Below, piece by piece: positions 5,345 to 22,476 of a stretch of 24,156 nucleotides of DNA. The position numbers and the translations under genes were made by a program. Below the pieces are notes generated by a model. It worked only from the letters and a program-made list of their open reading frames with translations, ran no database searches and was not told where the DNA came from. Location of the stretch: positions 1-24,156 of IMG/VR virus record IMGVR_UViG_3300034073_001696; one strand, given 5' to 3'. The stretch comes from a virus. Each line of letters starts with the position of its first letter. Within the stretch, counting starts at the first letter, position 1.

Positions 5345-6245
5345 AGAAACCTATGGCACCAGCGCAGCACCGCAGGGTGCTGATGCCTTGCTGGTGTCCA
5401 ACCTTGAGGTATCGCCCCTCGAGATTGAACTGCTGGATCGTGAGCTGATCACACCGTATCTGGGCAACTCAGAGAAGGTGGTGGGGCAGCGCATGGCCCA
5501 GGTGAACTTCGACGTGGAGCTGGCCGGCTCTGGTACTGCTGGGACTGCACCCAAGTGGGGCCGGATCCTGCTGGCCTGCGGCTTTGCCCAAGGCGGCACC
5601 CCTGGCACGGATGTGATCTACACGCCGGTGAGCGGCACCTTCTCCAGCGTCACGCTGGACTTCAACGCTGACGGCAACAAGCATCTTGTTACCGGGTGCC
5701 GCGGTACGGCCACGTTCAACCTGAACGCTGGTGAGATCCCGAAGATCAGCTTCCAGATGATGGGGATTTACAACGCCGTCACCGCTGCATCAGCTGCAAC
5801 GCCCACCTTCGACAACCAGGCTGATCCGGTGGTGGTGAACAGCGTCAACACCACGGCAGTGTCGGCGTTTAGCTTCTCGGCTTGCCTTGAGAGCTTCAGC
5901 CTGGATCTGGGCAATGAGACCCCCTTCCGTCAGCTGGCCGGTTGCACCCAGCAGGTGCTTATCACCGAGCGGGCACCGTCTGGGGAGATCAGCATCGAGG
6001 CACCCATCGTGGGCTCCAGTGCTGGGCAAAAGGACTTCTTTGCTGCCGTGTCGGCCCAGACGCTGGGAGCTATCACCTGGCAGCACGGGCAGACCGCCGG
6101 CAACATCGTCACCTTCAACGCCCCCACCTGCAATCTGGATTCACCCAGCTACGCAGACTCAGATGGCGTGATGATGCTCAACCTGCCGTTTATGCCGATT
6201 CCCACCTCGGCTGGCAATGACGAGATGACGATCACGCTGACCTGA
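5301..6245 (+). CDS. Major tail tube protein
   Basis: This 314-residue protein has the opening found in many phage tail tube proteins: MALLTRKRLLLAKTEETYGT, followed by ADALLVSNLEVSPLEIELLDR and a stretch predicting beta strands with GQRMAQVNFDVELAGSG. A repeated beta-rich core then runs to the end. In the virion it would stack as hexameric rings around the tape measure protein. The chosen start overlaps the preceding small gene by 44 bases and is supported by the conserved opening. It lies directly upstream of the tail chaperone genes, as in lambda and relatives. The absence of a sheath gene nearby argues for a non-contractile tail. Confidence 0.85.
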   Translation: MALLTRKRLLLAKTEETYGTSAAPQGADALLVSNLEVSPLEIELLDRELITPYLGNSEKVVGQRMAQVNFDVELAGSGTAGTAPKWGRILLACGFAQGGTPGTDVIYTPVSGTFSSVTLDFNADGNKHLVTGCRGTATFNLNAGEIPKISFQMMGIYNAVTAASAATPTFDNQADPVVVNSVNTTAVSAFSFSACLESFSLDLGNETPFRQLAGCTQQVLITERAPSGEISIEAPIVGSSAGQKDFFAAVSAQTLGAITWQHGQTAGNIVTFNAPTCNLDSPSYADSDGVMMLNLPFMPIPTSAGNDEMTITLT

Positions 6246-16895: not shown

Positions 16896-17175
16896 GGAAC
16901 CCTCCAGCAGTTGGCTCATCCCCAAGCTCAGTCTCATCACCCAGGCGCAGATGGAACTGGATCGGCGGGTGGCGGCCAGGATGAGCAGGGATCAGCTGTG
17001 TGCGCTGGTGGATGACCTGATCATCAGCTGGTACCAACACATGAGTTCGTTGGATCAAGCACTCGGGCGGGTGCGGCAGCTCGAGGTGCAGGTGGCCCTG
17101 GCTGAACCGCCTAAGCCGGGATGGCCTGAGCCGTCAACTGAGCACTACCGCTGGGCGCAAGAGTTAAGAGGTTGA
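16894..17175 (+). CDS. Small helical protein on the strand opposite to the operon
   Basis: This 93-residue candidate (from ATG at 16894; an ATG at 16840 is also possible) is probably mostly helical: ITQAQMELDRRVAARMSRDQ followed by LCALVDDLIISWYQHM and a heptad-like LDQALGRVRQLEVQVALAE. Third codon positions are GC-rich like real genes in the window, and the minus-strand alternatives look like shadows. No clear ribosome binding site was seen, which lowers confidence. Its end overlaps the 3' end of the minus-strand methyltransferase-like gene by 65 bases. It would be the only sizeable + strand gene inside the early region. Confidence 0.5.
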   Translation: MEPSSSWLIPKLSLITQAQMELDRRVAARMSRDQLCALVDDLIISWYQHMSSLDQALGRVRQLEVQVALAEPPKPGWPEPSTEHYRWAQELRG

Positions 17176-17758
17176 GCTGATCCATCAATGGCGGCAGGCT
17201 TCTGCTCCCCCACTGCTCACCCATGGCATCAGCCACGCCTTGATAGGTGCGGGAGCGTTCCTTCCAGCGATCAGGGCCAGGGGGCATCAGGTGCACCCGC
17301 TCCTCACGACCCTCGACGCAGTTGGTGGGCCGCAGCCGTGGGAGATTCTTGAGCCAGAAGCAGGTGGCTTTGACCTCGCCGTGGCCGAACTGCCATGGCT
17401 GGATGATCTGATCCGGCTGGCGGATGCGGGAGTTGATCAGGCTGACGGGGTTCTCAATGCACCAGCGTGGGATGGGTGCATCCATAAGCAGACGGACAAA
17501 GGCCAAGGCGCGATCCACCCGGCCATCGGCGTACTTCTGAGCGAACCAGCGGCAGCCGCTGATGGCCAGATCCGTACAGGGGGGATGGGCCACCATGAGA
17601 TCCCAGCTCTGGCTCAACACCTCCTCAACAGGGCATTGCAGGTGCCATGCAGGGTCCGCTTCACAGGGGAGCAGGTCACAGCTCCATGCGTCGTGCCCAT
17701 GTGAGCGGAAGGCATCACGGACCCTGCCGCTGTATTCACAGGCGACTAGCACGCGCAT
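17111..17758 (-). CDS. Small C5 cytosine methyltransferase-like protein
   Basis: This 215-residue protein has landmarks of cytosine-C5 methyltransferases. It has a SAM-binding-like start (MRVLVACEYSGRVRDAF), HPPC at residues 58-61 corresponding to the catalytic PC motif IV, and ENP at 102-104 in place of the ENV motif VI. A conserved end RSRTYQGVADAMGEQW follows. It lacks the length for a target recognition domain, so it may be a very small methyltransferase, a relative acting on another substrate, or an inactive form. The ATG at 17758 follows the sigma factor stop closely; a TTG at 17764 is an alternative. Related proteins in phages are usually annotated as DNA methyltransferases. Confidence 0.7.
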   Translation of the reverse strand: MRVLVACEYSGRVRDAFRSHGHDAWSCDLLPCEADPAWHLQCPVEEVLSQSWDLMVAHPPCTDLAISGCRWFAQKYADGRVDRALAFVRLLMDAPIPRWCIENPVSLINSRIRQPDQIIQPWQFGHGEVKATCFWLKNLPRLRPTNCVEGREERVHLMPPGPDRWKERSRTYQGVADAMGEQWGSRSLPPLMDQLNLLTLAPSGSAQLTAQAIPA

Positions 17759-17760
17759 AC

Positions 17761-18732
17761 TCAAGCCACCAGCAGGCTGAGCTGCCCCGGCGCCACCTTC
17801 ACCCGCCGCCGCTTCACCACCTTCGACACGGCCACTACCGGCTGCCTGGGGATGGCGATCAAGACGAGCTGCACCGCCTGATGGCGTAGCTGCTGCTGCA
17901 GTCCCTCCAGCCGCTGCTCCAGCTGCCGCACGCTCAACCCATACCGTGCCGCCAGTTCCTTCGGCTTCACCTCCTCGCCGTCCAGGCCCCAGGCCATCGA
18001 CAGCAGGTCGCGATCTGTACGCGGCAGTTTGCGGATCAGGCCACGCAGCTGCTCAATCTGCCGCCACCGATCCTGCTGCTCCTCCTGCTCCTCGAGCGTC
18101 TGGTCATACGTGGCGACCACATCACCTAGATCTGGGCCATCGTCATCCAGCTGCACATCGAGGCTGGAGATAGGCCGGGCATTGATCAGCAGCTGCTCGA
18201 ACACGGCCATGCTCACGCCGAGCTCAGCCGCCAGTTCTTCGCGTGTGGGCGTGCGGTTCAGCTCACGCTCCAGCCGGCGGGTGATGGGCCCGAGGCGGCC
18301 CAGGTGCTGGCTATGGGAGCCGGGGATAGCGACCAGCCGGCCATGCTGATCAATGTGCCGGTTGACTGCCTGCCGGATCCACCAGTACGCATAGGTGGAG
18401 AAGCGGTAGCCGCGGTGCGGGTCGAAGCGCTCTACCGCACGGATCAGTCCTTCATTGGCAGCCTGGATCAGATCTTCGGTGGTGGTCTTCTTGGCCAGCC
18501 GGTGGCAGTGCTTGCTGATGTATGAAACGGCGAGTCTGAGGTTGGCGCGTACAAAGCGCTCCTTTGCCCTGCGGCCGCGGCGTTTGATGCCAGGGGGGCA
18601 GGCATCAGGGCCATCAGGATGATGCAGCCAGGCCTGGATCTGATTGCCCAGTTCGATCTCCTCCGCTGGCGTGAGCAGGGGGATACGACCGATCTGATCC
18701 AGCCACCAGCCCAGGCCAGATGCGGCTGCCAT
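17761..18732 (-). CDS. Sigma-70 family RNA polymerase sigma factor
   Basis: This 323-residue protein is a sigma factor with regions in order: 1.2 (LDQIGRIPLLTPAEEIELGN, residues 11-30), 2 (residues 55-126, with RFSTYAYWWIRQAVNR at 110-125), 3 (about 130-182, LERELNRTPTREELAAELGV) and 4 (about 218-275, with KELAARYGLSVRQLEQRLEG). Its nearest look is to group 1/2 factors of cyanobacteria, but region 1.1 is absent. The -35 helix in region 4.2 departs strongly from the usual TRERIRQIE. A basic tail of about 45 residues follows region 4. The start at 18732 overlaps the previous small gene's stop (TAATG) and has GAGG upstream, so it is preferred over a GTG at 18774. It likely redirects host RNA polymerase to phage promoters. 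Confidence 0.9.
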   Translation of the reverse strand: MAAASGLGWWLDQIGRIPLLTPAEEIELGNQIQAWLHHPDGPDACPPGIKRRGRRAKERFVRANLRLAVSYISKHCHRLAKKTTTEDLIQAANEGLIRAVERFDPHRGYRFSTYAYWWIRQAVNRHIDQHGRLVAIPGSHSQHLGRLGPITRRLERELNRTPTREELAAELGVSMAVFEQLLINARPISSLDVQLDDDGPDLGDVVATYDQTLEEQEEQQDRWRQIEQLRGLIRKLPRTDRDLLSMAWGLDGEEVKPKELAARYGLSVRQLEQRLEGLQQQLRHQAVQLVLIAIPRQPVVAVSKVVKRRRVKVAPGQLSLLVA

Positions 18733-18902
18733 TACATCCTCGACAGCTTCGCTACCACCACCACCTGCAGGCACAGGAACAGTGCTTGCATCCAGAGGAT
18801 GGACACCATCAGCCGGCGCAGGTCACGCAGGCTTTCAACAGGCACCACCCGCACGCCGGCGTAACGGTCAGGGCGGATGTTCGGCATCTCGATACGGGCC
18901 AT
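18732..18902 (-). CDS. Small single-pass membrane protein coupled to sigma factor
   Basis: This is a 56-codon gene that fills the gap between the exonuclease and the sigma factor. Its ATG overlaps the exonuclease stop (TGATG at 18904-18900), and its TAA overlaps the sigma start (TAATG). Such tight coupling on both sides strongly supports it. The product has a basic, polar first half (MARIEMPNIRPDRYAGVRVV) followed by a hydrophobic segment LMVSILWMQALFLCLQVVVV near residues 31-50 and a short basic end. It could anchor a partner at the membrane or act as an anti-sigma-like factor, but that is speculation from location. Confidence 0.68.
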   Translation of the reverse strand: MARIEMPNIRPDRYAGVRVVPVESLRDLRRLMVSILWMQALFLCLQVVVVAKLSRM

Positions 18903-21446: not shown

Positions 21447-21598
21447 TACCGGGCACACTCCATCGCGGTGGCCCGTTCATGGATGATGCGGCGCATCAGA
21501 TCGCTGATGCCTTCATCCTGCTGCTGCAGTGCCCGCAGCTTCTCAATGTCTCGCACCGGAACGAGGATGCTCAGCCGGCGTGTCTCCTGCTGATTCAT
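21446..21598 (-). CDS. Small ribbon-helix-helix-type protein (50 residues)
   Basis: This short gene begins with the ATG at 21598, overlapping the methyltransferase stop (ATGA), and ends in a TAATG overlap with the next gene. The product, MNQQETRRLSILVPVRDIEK followed by a helix (LRALQQQDEGISDLMRRIIH) with a basic region, fits the Arc/MetJ/CopG ribbon-helix-helix fold: a short beta strand then two helices, dimeric, DNA-binding by the strand. It may repress or autoregulate the early operon. The fold call is by pattern only. Confidence 0.6.
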   Translation of the reverse strand: MNQQETRRLSILVPVRDIEKLRALQQQDEGISDLMRRIIHERATAMECAR

Positions 21599-22476
21599 GC
21601 CACCTCCTGCAGTTGGAACAGTTGGCCAGCAGATCCCTCAGCCTGCTCGAGGAACTTGGCTGCCTGCTTGGCGTACTCAGGCTTCAGCTCCACACCGATA
21701 TACCGGCGGCCCATCTTCAGGGCTTGGTACCCCGTGCTGCCGATCCCATTGAATGGATCCAGTACCAGCTCGCCTGGGTTGCTGTAGAGCGTGATGCACC
21801 GCTCAATCACATCCAGCTGCAGCGGGCAGATGTGCTTCTCATCCTGCTGGCCCTTGGCCTGCCGGCCATTGAGCACCTTGGTCTGATTGACCTGCATCCA
21901 TACCGGGCTGGCCAGCTCCTGCCACATGCTCACCGGCAGATCCTCGGGATCATGGGTGATCGGATCTGGGTTTTCCTGATCCTTGCGGAAGAAGAGCATG
22001 TAGTCCGGCATGCCAACCCGGCTGCGGCTGCTGTCCTTCTTGAGCTGCTTGTACAGCAGGCCCAATGCCTTGGTCCGCTGCATCTCAATGACCGGATCCT
22101 TCCAAATGGTGCAGCGGGCGTGATACACCCAGCCGGCATCCTGATGGGCGCGGATCAGGTCACCACCAAAGTCATGCAGCCCGATGAATCCGTCTTTGCT
22201 CTTGCGGGCTGGCAGGTCTGAGCAGTGCACGCATGCCATGCGACCGGGCTTCAGCACCCGATACAGCGCCTGCGTGAAATAGGCATAGTGCTCCATGAAC
22301 TCGGCATGGCTGTTGCAGTTGCCCATATCGCGCTCAGAGTCTGAGTACACGAAGAGGTCCGAAAATGGAGGCGAGAAAATCGCCAGATCGATCATGCCCT
22401 CAGGCAGACCGTTCATGATCTCGATGCAGTCGGCCAGGTAGACAGCCCACCGTTGGCCTTGATAGTCGGGTTTCAT
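21595..22476 (-). CDS. DNA methyltransferase, beta class (N4-cytosine or N6-adenine)
   Basis: This 293-residue protein has a catalytic motif IV SPPF at residues 35-38 near the start and the SAM-binding motif DPFNGIGSTG at 240-249 near the end. That order defines beta-class amino-methyltransferases. SPPF is more common in N4-cytosine enzymes, whereas DPPY is typical of N6-adenine enzymes, so cytosine is favoured. The middle region would hold target recognition. No matching restriction endonuclease gene is visible, suggesting a solitary methyltransferase that protects phage DNA from host restriction or marks it. Start and end are coupled with the helicase and ribbon-helix-helix genes by ATGA overlaps. 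Confidence 0.88.
   Translation of the reverse strand: MKPDYQGQRWAVYLADCIEIMNGLPEGMIDLAIFSPPFSDLFVYSDSERDMGNCNSHAEFMEHYAYFTQALYRVLKPGRMACVHCSDLPARKSKDGFIGLHDFGGDLIRAHQDAGWVYHARCTIWKDPVIEMQRTKALGLLYKQLKKDSSRSRVGMPDYMLFFRKDQENPDPITHDPEDLPVSMWQELASPVWMQVNQTKVLNGRQAKGQQDEKHICPLQLDVIERCITLYSNPGELVLDPFNGIGSTGYQALKMGRRYIGVELKPEYAKQAAKFLEQAEGSAGQLFQLQEVA

Follow-up and report, generated by a model that had tools for sequence, protein, structure and literature searches.

A phage sigma-70 factor with a putative clamp-docking tail may couple transcription to replication in freshwater cyanosiphoviruses

The sigma factor described here has changed residues at the positions that ordinarily read the -35 promoter element and ends in a flexible tail bearing peptides that resemble the binding motif of the bacterial sliding clamp. 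On balance we favour the interpretation that this sigma couples phage transcription to phage DNA replication by way of the host beta sliding clamp, DnaN.

The gene lies on a virus record of 24,156 bases, the whole of which is referred to below as the window, and the gene families encoded there are those of siphovirus head, tail, lysis and replication functions. Synechococcus phage S-LBS1 is the nearest named relative, the two being 80% identical in helicase and methylase DNA, 90% in the head protein and 67% in the sigma, and the window virus is a small cyanosiphovirus related to S-LBS1 that infects freshwater cyanobacteria. A separate observation concerns the N6/N4 DNA methylase at 21595-22476 (minus strand), which shows 87% protein identity to its S-LBS1 counterpart and 76% DNA identity to EBPR podovirus 2 gp1, an unusual closeness suggesting that phages of different hosts have recently exchanged the gene.

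The gene and the sigma regions that bear on its function are as follows.

17761..18732, minus strand: sigma-70-family gene, likely ATG start, stop at 17761; alternative GTG start at 18774
18628..18702, minus strand: sigma region 1.2 (Pfam PF00140, residues 25-49, E 4.8e-9)
18337..18555, minus strand: sigma region 2, containing FSTYAYWWIRQ and retaining the -11A/melting residues (Pfam PF04542, residues 74-146, E 2.5e-17)
18091..18303, minus strand: sigma region 3, extended -10 residues changed (Pfam PF04539, residues 158-228, E 2.5e-13)
17902..17934, minus strand: region 4.2 recognition helix SVRQLEQRLEG, -35 readers replaced (alignment to E. coli RpoD)

This open reading frame is a genuine sigma-70-family gene, and the earlier note, which had recognised it as a phage-encoded sigma-70 factor, is borne out by the Pfam matches, by a match to PHROG 351 'RNA polymerase sigma factor' (E 5e-58) and by a Foldseek search of the structural model in which SigA chains were the top PDB matches. 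Read from the GTG the frame (17761-18774, minus strand) encodes 337 amino acids; the ATG at 18732, at which the earlier note had placed the gene end, opens a protein beginning with MAAASGLGWWLDQIG and is the likelier start, since the sigma proteins of the QLSLF-tailed relatives begin with MAPPSGLSWWLDQIG. The Pfam search of the window sigma returned regions 1.2, 2 and 3 above cut-off and no match to a region 4 model. An AlphaFold model based on a 31-sequence alignment, which superseded a poor single-sequence model (pLDDT 45), folds regions 1.2 to 4, with a pLDDT of about 78-88 in the region 4 blocks and below 50 at residues 303-337, which were read as disordered. The claim that regions 1.2 to 4 are all present is thus supported by Pfam for the first three, and for region 4 by the predicted fold and not by Pfam.

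Alignment to E. coli RpoD established that the window sigma retains Y425, F427, T429, Y430, W433, W434 and Q437, and has Asn in place of T440. The first six of these residues we take to be those that flip the -11A and melt the DNA, while R451, H455 and E458 presumably contact the extended -10 element and R584, E585, R586 and R588 presumably read the -35 element. In the window sigma the extended -10 residues are altered (R451A, H455S, E458Q), as are the -35 readers (R584V, E585R, R586Q, R588E), with Q589 kept. The sequence SVRQLEQRLEG that had been reported for the region 4.2 helix, and the replacement of four -35-reading residues within it, were therefore confirmed, and the proposed conservation of the -10 contact holds for the seven retained residues and fails at positions 440, 451, 455 and 458. 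Among 33 close relatives FSTYAYWWIRQ is invariant (33/33), and the -11A and melting residues are near-invariant across the whole phage-only clade to which these sigmas belong. Of the -35 positions, 584 is occupied by T, V, A, P, I or S in the 33 relatives and 586 by A, Q, R, V or K, and 589 varies as well; Arg is found at position 585 in 31, and 31 have an acidic residue, Glu or Asp, at position 588, where E. coli has Arg. The wider clade shows no shared consensus at the -35 positions, and the -35 and extended -10 readers are lost or drifting, a loss that is incomplete since the clade representatives L176 and L178 retain R584, E585 and R588. As no clade consensus has emerged and position 588 is acidic in nearly all close relatives, the pattern points to a loss of ordinary -35 reading and not to a new -35 word, and it looks as if ordinary -35 reading has been lost with the fold of region 4 being kept. 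An altered -35 specificity, as originally proposed, thus probably places the emphasis wrongly. It could still be argued that region 4.2 recognises another kind of -35 element and that the basic tail provides non-specific DNA affinity only, as region 4 folds confidently in the AlphaFold model and the preference for Arg at 585 and an acidic residue at 588 implies some constraint within the subclade; we consider this unlikely, however, given the lack of a shared consensus in the wider clade, and a purely basic tail does not explain why Q-L-x-L is kept in 33/33 relatives while the linker diverges.

Besides the apparent loss of ordinary -35 reading, which we prefer to a new -35 specificity, the window sigma is distinguished by what follows the recognition helix.

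17764..17880, minus strand: C-terminal tail of 39 residues, predicted disordered (pLDDT <50 at 303-337), absent from host sigmas
17854..17871, minus strand: inner clamp-motif-like peptide QLVLIA; a QLxL-like peptide is found here in 30/33 close relatives
17797..17823, minus strand: basic linker KVVKRRRVK, Arg-rich and poorly conserved by position
17770..17784, minus strand: terminal clamp-motif-like peptide QLSLL; Q-(L)-x-(L/F) follows the linker in 33/33 relatives

The tail (QAVQLVLIAIPRQPVVAVSKVVKRRRVKVAPGQLSLLVA) consists of an Arg/Lys-rich linker with QLSLL at its end and a second copy, QLVLIA, after region 4.2, and its notable feature is the possession of two QLxL peptides as well as its basicity. 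The earlier description of a basic C-terminal extension of about 45 residues was accurate as to charge, the length being 39 residues beyond the recognition helix. The host sigmas examined end within about 15 residues of that helix, and none of them has a QLxL-bearing tail. The consensus for binding to the beta clamp is QLxLF or QL(S/D)LF, mostly at the C-terminus (PMC4549789, PMC9690074); the window peptide QLSLL is one residue off QLxLF, and the exact QLSLF is the terminal peptide in relatives L004, L005, L006 and L030. Judged by this resemblance, the tail looks like a clamp-docking tail, a feature that the earlier note had overlooked. Further tail ends among the virus contigs include QLTLLAIA, QLSLFAA, QLALPLV, QLALFGPLE, DQLELL and EQLRLF, and several relatives have weaker terminal motifs (QLVLEVA, QLRLVVA). 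When columns were counted from the motif, all 33 close relatives were found to have Q-L/M-x-L/F after a basic linker, with Leu at position 2 in 33/33 and at position 4 in 31/33, and the five linker positions before the motif (-5 to -1) reached an agreement of at most 12/33; as the Q is fixed by construction in this count, what carries weight is that no member lacks such a site. The motif stands well upstream of the C-terminus in four clade representatives. The tails of L009, L014, L018, L023 and L032 run past the motif into a conserved GGFPRNW(V/T)xL stretch.

The occurrence of QL.L in the tails exceeds chance by three tests. The pattern is present in the tails of 13/17 clade representatives, as compared to a mean of 0.45 and a maximum of 4 in 5,000 shuffles of the tails, and a looser motif, defined post hoc, is present in all 17 (shuffle maximum 9). 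A count of all patterns specifying three of four residues ranked QL.L first in the 17 tails (13/17; best shuffle pattern 7/17), and outside the window's subclade it was still the top pattern with 6/10, a number equalled by one shuffle. When 2,085 ORFs from phage loci, each with 150 or more amino acids, were scanned blind for QLxL[FL] in the last 30 residues, the motif was detected in 10/122 sigmas versus 8/1,963 other ORFs (odds ratio 22, p 1e-8, the rows not being independent). A broader motif pattern had in part been picked after the tails had been seen, and more weight is therefore given to QLxLF as published and to the pattern count, which is unbiased. Among other phage sigmas QL.L was present in 4/46. 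A strict link between a degenerate region 4.2 and a QLxL tail was also considered and rejected: many degenerate phage sigmas are tail-less, so that one feature does not closely follow the other and only a trend is apparent.

The matches among the non-sigma ORFs include a TnpB-type gene (QLGLFVV) and the methyltransferase-like neighbour of the sigma gene, in which the peptide is located as follows.

17165..17179, minus strand: QLNLL, close to the C-terminal end encoded by the neighbouring DNA-methyltransferase-like gene (17111-17764, phrog_757)

Two methyltransferase-like genes have QLNLL near their end, namely this neighbour (minus strand; MDQLNLLTLA...) and L003:10954-11574 (VVRQLNLLSVA), and on account of this ending the neighbour (phrog_757) may bind the clamp too. 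In L002 (2510-2660; compare window 17111-17784) the sigma frame is fused to the C-terminal part of its methyltransferase-like neighbour. The junction lies within CAGCTCA, which is common to both QLxLL-coding stretches, and the hybrid retains one QLNLL. The TnpB-type gene is an inserted IS605 OrfB/TnpB-type gene (L368:1308-2867, minus strand) and its ending is an exact match to the clamp motif; transposases are a known class of clamp binder (PMC4549789).

Short hydrophobic peptides have many potential partners, and the QLxL peptides of the tail could bind a partner other than the clamp, such as the RNA polymerase beta flap, to which the inner copy would lie close as it directly follows region 4.2, or a phage protein. 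In addition, a separate clade of phage sigmas (L057, L062-L070, L072, L076, L080, L251-L253, L273 and L295) has an unrelated conserved ending, SSSL(T/I)WGW(G/S), so that conservation of a sigma tail does not by itself mark a clamp motif. Another partner is nevertheless decidedly unlikely in our view, as the invariant Gln, the QLxL spacing and the variants QLSLF, QLALF, QLRLF and QLALPL fit the clamp motif specifically, and as the same peptide occurs in the methyltransferase-like neighbour and the TnpB-type gene.

A quick maximum-likelihood tree of regions 1.2-4, from which the tails were excluded and for which no bootstrap was run, placed the 17 tailed-lineage rows in one phage-only clade (SH-aLRT 98), with the window's subclade at SH-aLRT 100. 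Every QLxL-tailed lineage fell inside this clade and the host group 1-3 sigmas fell elsewhere. A sigma tree had been named in the earlier note as a refutation test; in the tree obtained the window sigma is not among the host group 1-3 sigmas, and the phage-only clade of 17 representatives supports the claim of a phage-dedicated sigma. That the gene is an ordinary host group 2 sigma taken up by a phage is barely conceivable: its regions 1.2-3 are plainly RpoD-like and the S-LBS1 copy is annotated 'cyanobacterial RpoD-like', yet we reject this origin on the tree, which sets the phage-only clade outside the host groups, and the promoter-reading residues and tail are unlike those of every host sigma examined. 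As all tailed lineages of this phage-dedicated group lie in one clade, the tail is best read as an old, retained feature and not as the product of many gains; the tails of the clade members may have a single origin and hence would not be independent gains.

The S-LBS1 orthologue of the window sigma, gene A33 (ATS93205), is 67% identical to it and shares its location, after the replication genes and convergent with the lysozyme gene; its tail, SVQLVLVAV...LQLVLVEAP, has QLVLV where the window has QLSLL, and the paper on S-LBS1 makes no mention of a clamp (PMC6157547). The marine cyanosiphoviruses S-CBS1 and S-CBS3 encode sigma-70 proteins at the same genome position, but these have a canonical region 4.2 (SRERIRQ, SREAIRQ) and short tails with no QLxL, are about 40% identical to the window sigma over half its length, and lie outside the clade. 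In L307 and L179 (ORFs ending at 5972 and 5966) two sigma genes stand in tandem, a tail-less one whose region 4.2 is canonical being directly upstream of the tailed QLSLFAA sigma, an arrangement that is as expected if each reads a different promoter class. A tailed sigma 62% identical to that of the window was also observed on L082, a 5.6-kb contig of a Synechococcaceae MAG, which is probably a phage contig or a prophage piece in the bin.

A clamp-docking tail would act on a clamp supplied by the host. The DnaN proteins of Synechococcus RCC307 and Cyanobium ATX 6A2 are 29% identical to E. coli beta overall, and both are identical to it at L155, T172, G174, H175, L177, P242, N320, Y323, M362 and P363, which we take to be the peptide-pocket residues of E. 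coli beta; judged by these positions, the host DnaN keeps the pocket nearly unchanged. In the phages searched, where the window's own contig is a fragment, a bacterial-type DnaN domain was not found, nor was a family A polymerase or a Pol III alpha, and a primase-polymerase was present in five. It is thus probably the replisome and clamp of the host on which these phages depend. Iteron-like repeats of short words (GCCTAACCT, TTTGGGACA or CGTAATG) adjoin a large PrimPol-like gene, and the same loci have a stretch rich in AT as well as a near-palindrome centred on GCAGATCC...CGATCTGC, an arrangement that looks like an iteron-type replication origin.

L360:34236-34641: iteron-like locus
G009 contig, about 1100-1600: iteron-like locus
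G010 contig, about 950-1400: iteron-like locus
G003 contig, about 2500-2900: iteron-like locus

A T4-like late promoter was not found in S-LBS1, the window or seven relatives: the exact sequence TATAAATA, of which few copies are expected by chance at 60% GC and of which variants are possible, is absent from all of them. Inspection of the intergenic gaps of S-LBS1 and the window revealed no convincing repeated box, the window being without the terminase end, the expected site of the main late promoter. In the window and eight related genomes TATAAT was seen once as compared to 7-9 expected and TATGAT 16 times as compared to 40-64 expected, and TATAAT, TATGAT, TACAAT and TATACT are rarer than other AT-rich hexamers; this rarity of consensus -10 words indicates only an avoidance of stray -10 sites.

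In the mechanism that we propose, region 2 of the sigma would bind host core RNA polymerase and open a -10-type promoter, as expected by homology, while region 4, still folded, would probably sit on the beta flap and, given the loss of its reading residues, read no -35 box. The flexible Arg-rich tail would then insert one or two QLxL peptides into the DnaN pocket, as motif, conservation and pocket suggest, and the polymerase would be tethered upstream of the promoter by clamps that replication had left on the phage DNA, a hold that would replace the -35 contact. The putative targets are late genes, as the earlier note had suggested. One polypeptide and the host clamp would in this way do the job of T4 gp55, gp33 and gp45. 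Clamp-binding inhibitors such as the toxin SocB exist (PMC9690074), and the tail might instead bind the clamp in order to impede host replication, to take it over or to stay near forks, and not to activate promoters; this we regard as highly improbable, as the core-binding and melting regions of the sigma that bears the peptide are intact and T4 offers a direct precedent for activation. Extended from the window sigma to the clade, promoter activation through the clamp would mean that single-polypeptide sigma-70 factors have swapped -35 recognition for docking on the host beta clamp, and that T4-style coupling arose twice, on this second occasion with neither a phage clamp nor a coactivator, a generalisation to which we give slightly less than even chances. 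If true, replication-coupled expression would be open to phages of 35-45 kb that borrow the host clamp, a simple peptide motif would predict such expression, and whether beta can activate any bacterial promoter complex would become testable.

The known binders of the bacterial beta clamp resemble the window sigma in that a disordered tail carries a short Q-L-x-L peptide at the C-terminus, but they act in replication, repair or transposition, whereas the window protein is a sigma. In the largely open-access literature searched, no bacterial-type sigma with a clamp motif was found and work on clamp-binding sigmas was confined to the T4 type; clamp-activated transcription has been described as unique to T4 (PMC9690074) and to T4-related phages (PMC2988020). 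The T4 late system is alike in having a sigma 2 domain and, on a flexible and divergent linker, a short clamp epitope at the C-terminus, the epitope of the window sigma being putative, and in lacking ordinary -35 reading (PMC2988020, PMC9690074). In T4 gp55 a hydrophobic C-terminal clamp epitope is carried on a divergent linker of variable length, and gp33 binds the flap (PMC2988020). Sigma 2 and the flap-binding part are thus two proteins in T4, whereas the window has one full-length sigma-70 protein; T4 also supplies its own clamp, gp45, docks on it by an epitope of the LDFL type and uses a TATAAATA promoter of 8 bp, in contrast to the putative QLxL-type epitope for bacterial beta in the window phage, for which neither a phage DnaN nor such a promoter was found. 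Members of the gp55 family have sigma 2 only and no sigma 4-equivalent domain, whereas region 4 of the window sigma is predicted to fold; on account of this region, and as no DnaN-type phage clamp and no TATAAATA promoters were found, the window sigma is not assigned to that family. Artificial gp55-gp33 fusions with an internal epitope are still functional in vitro (PMC2988020), and it is the layout of such a fusion that the window sigma, with its inner and terminal peptides, resembles.
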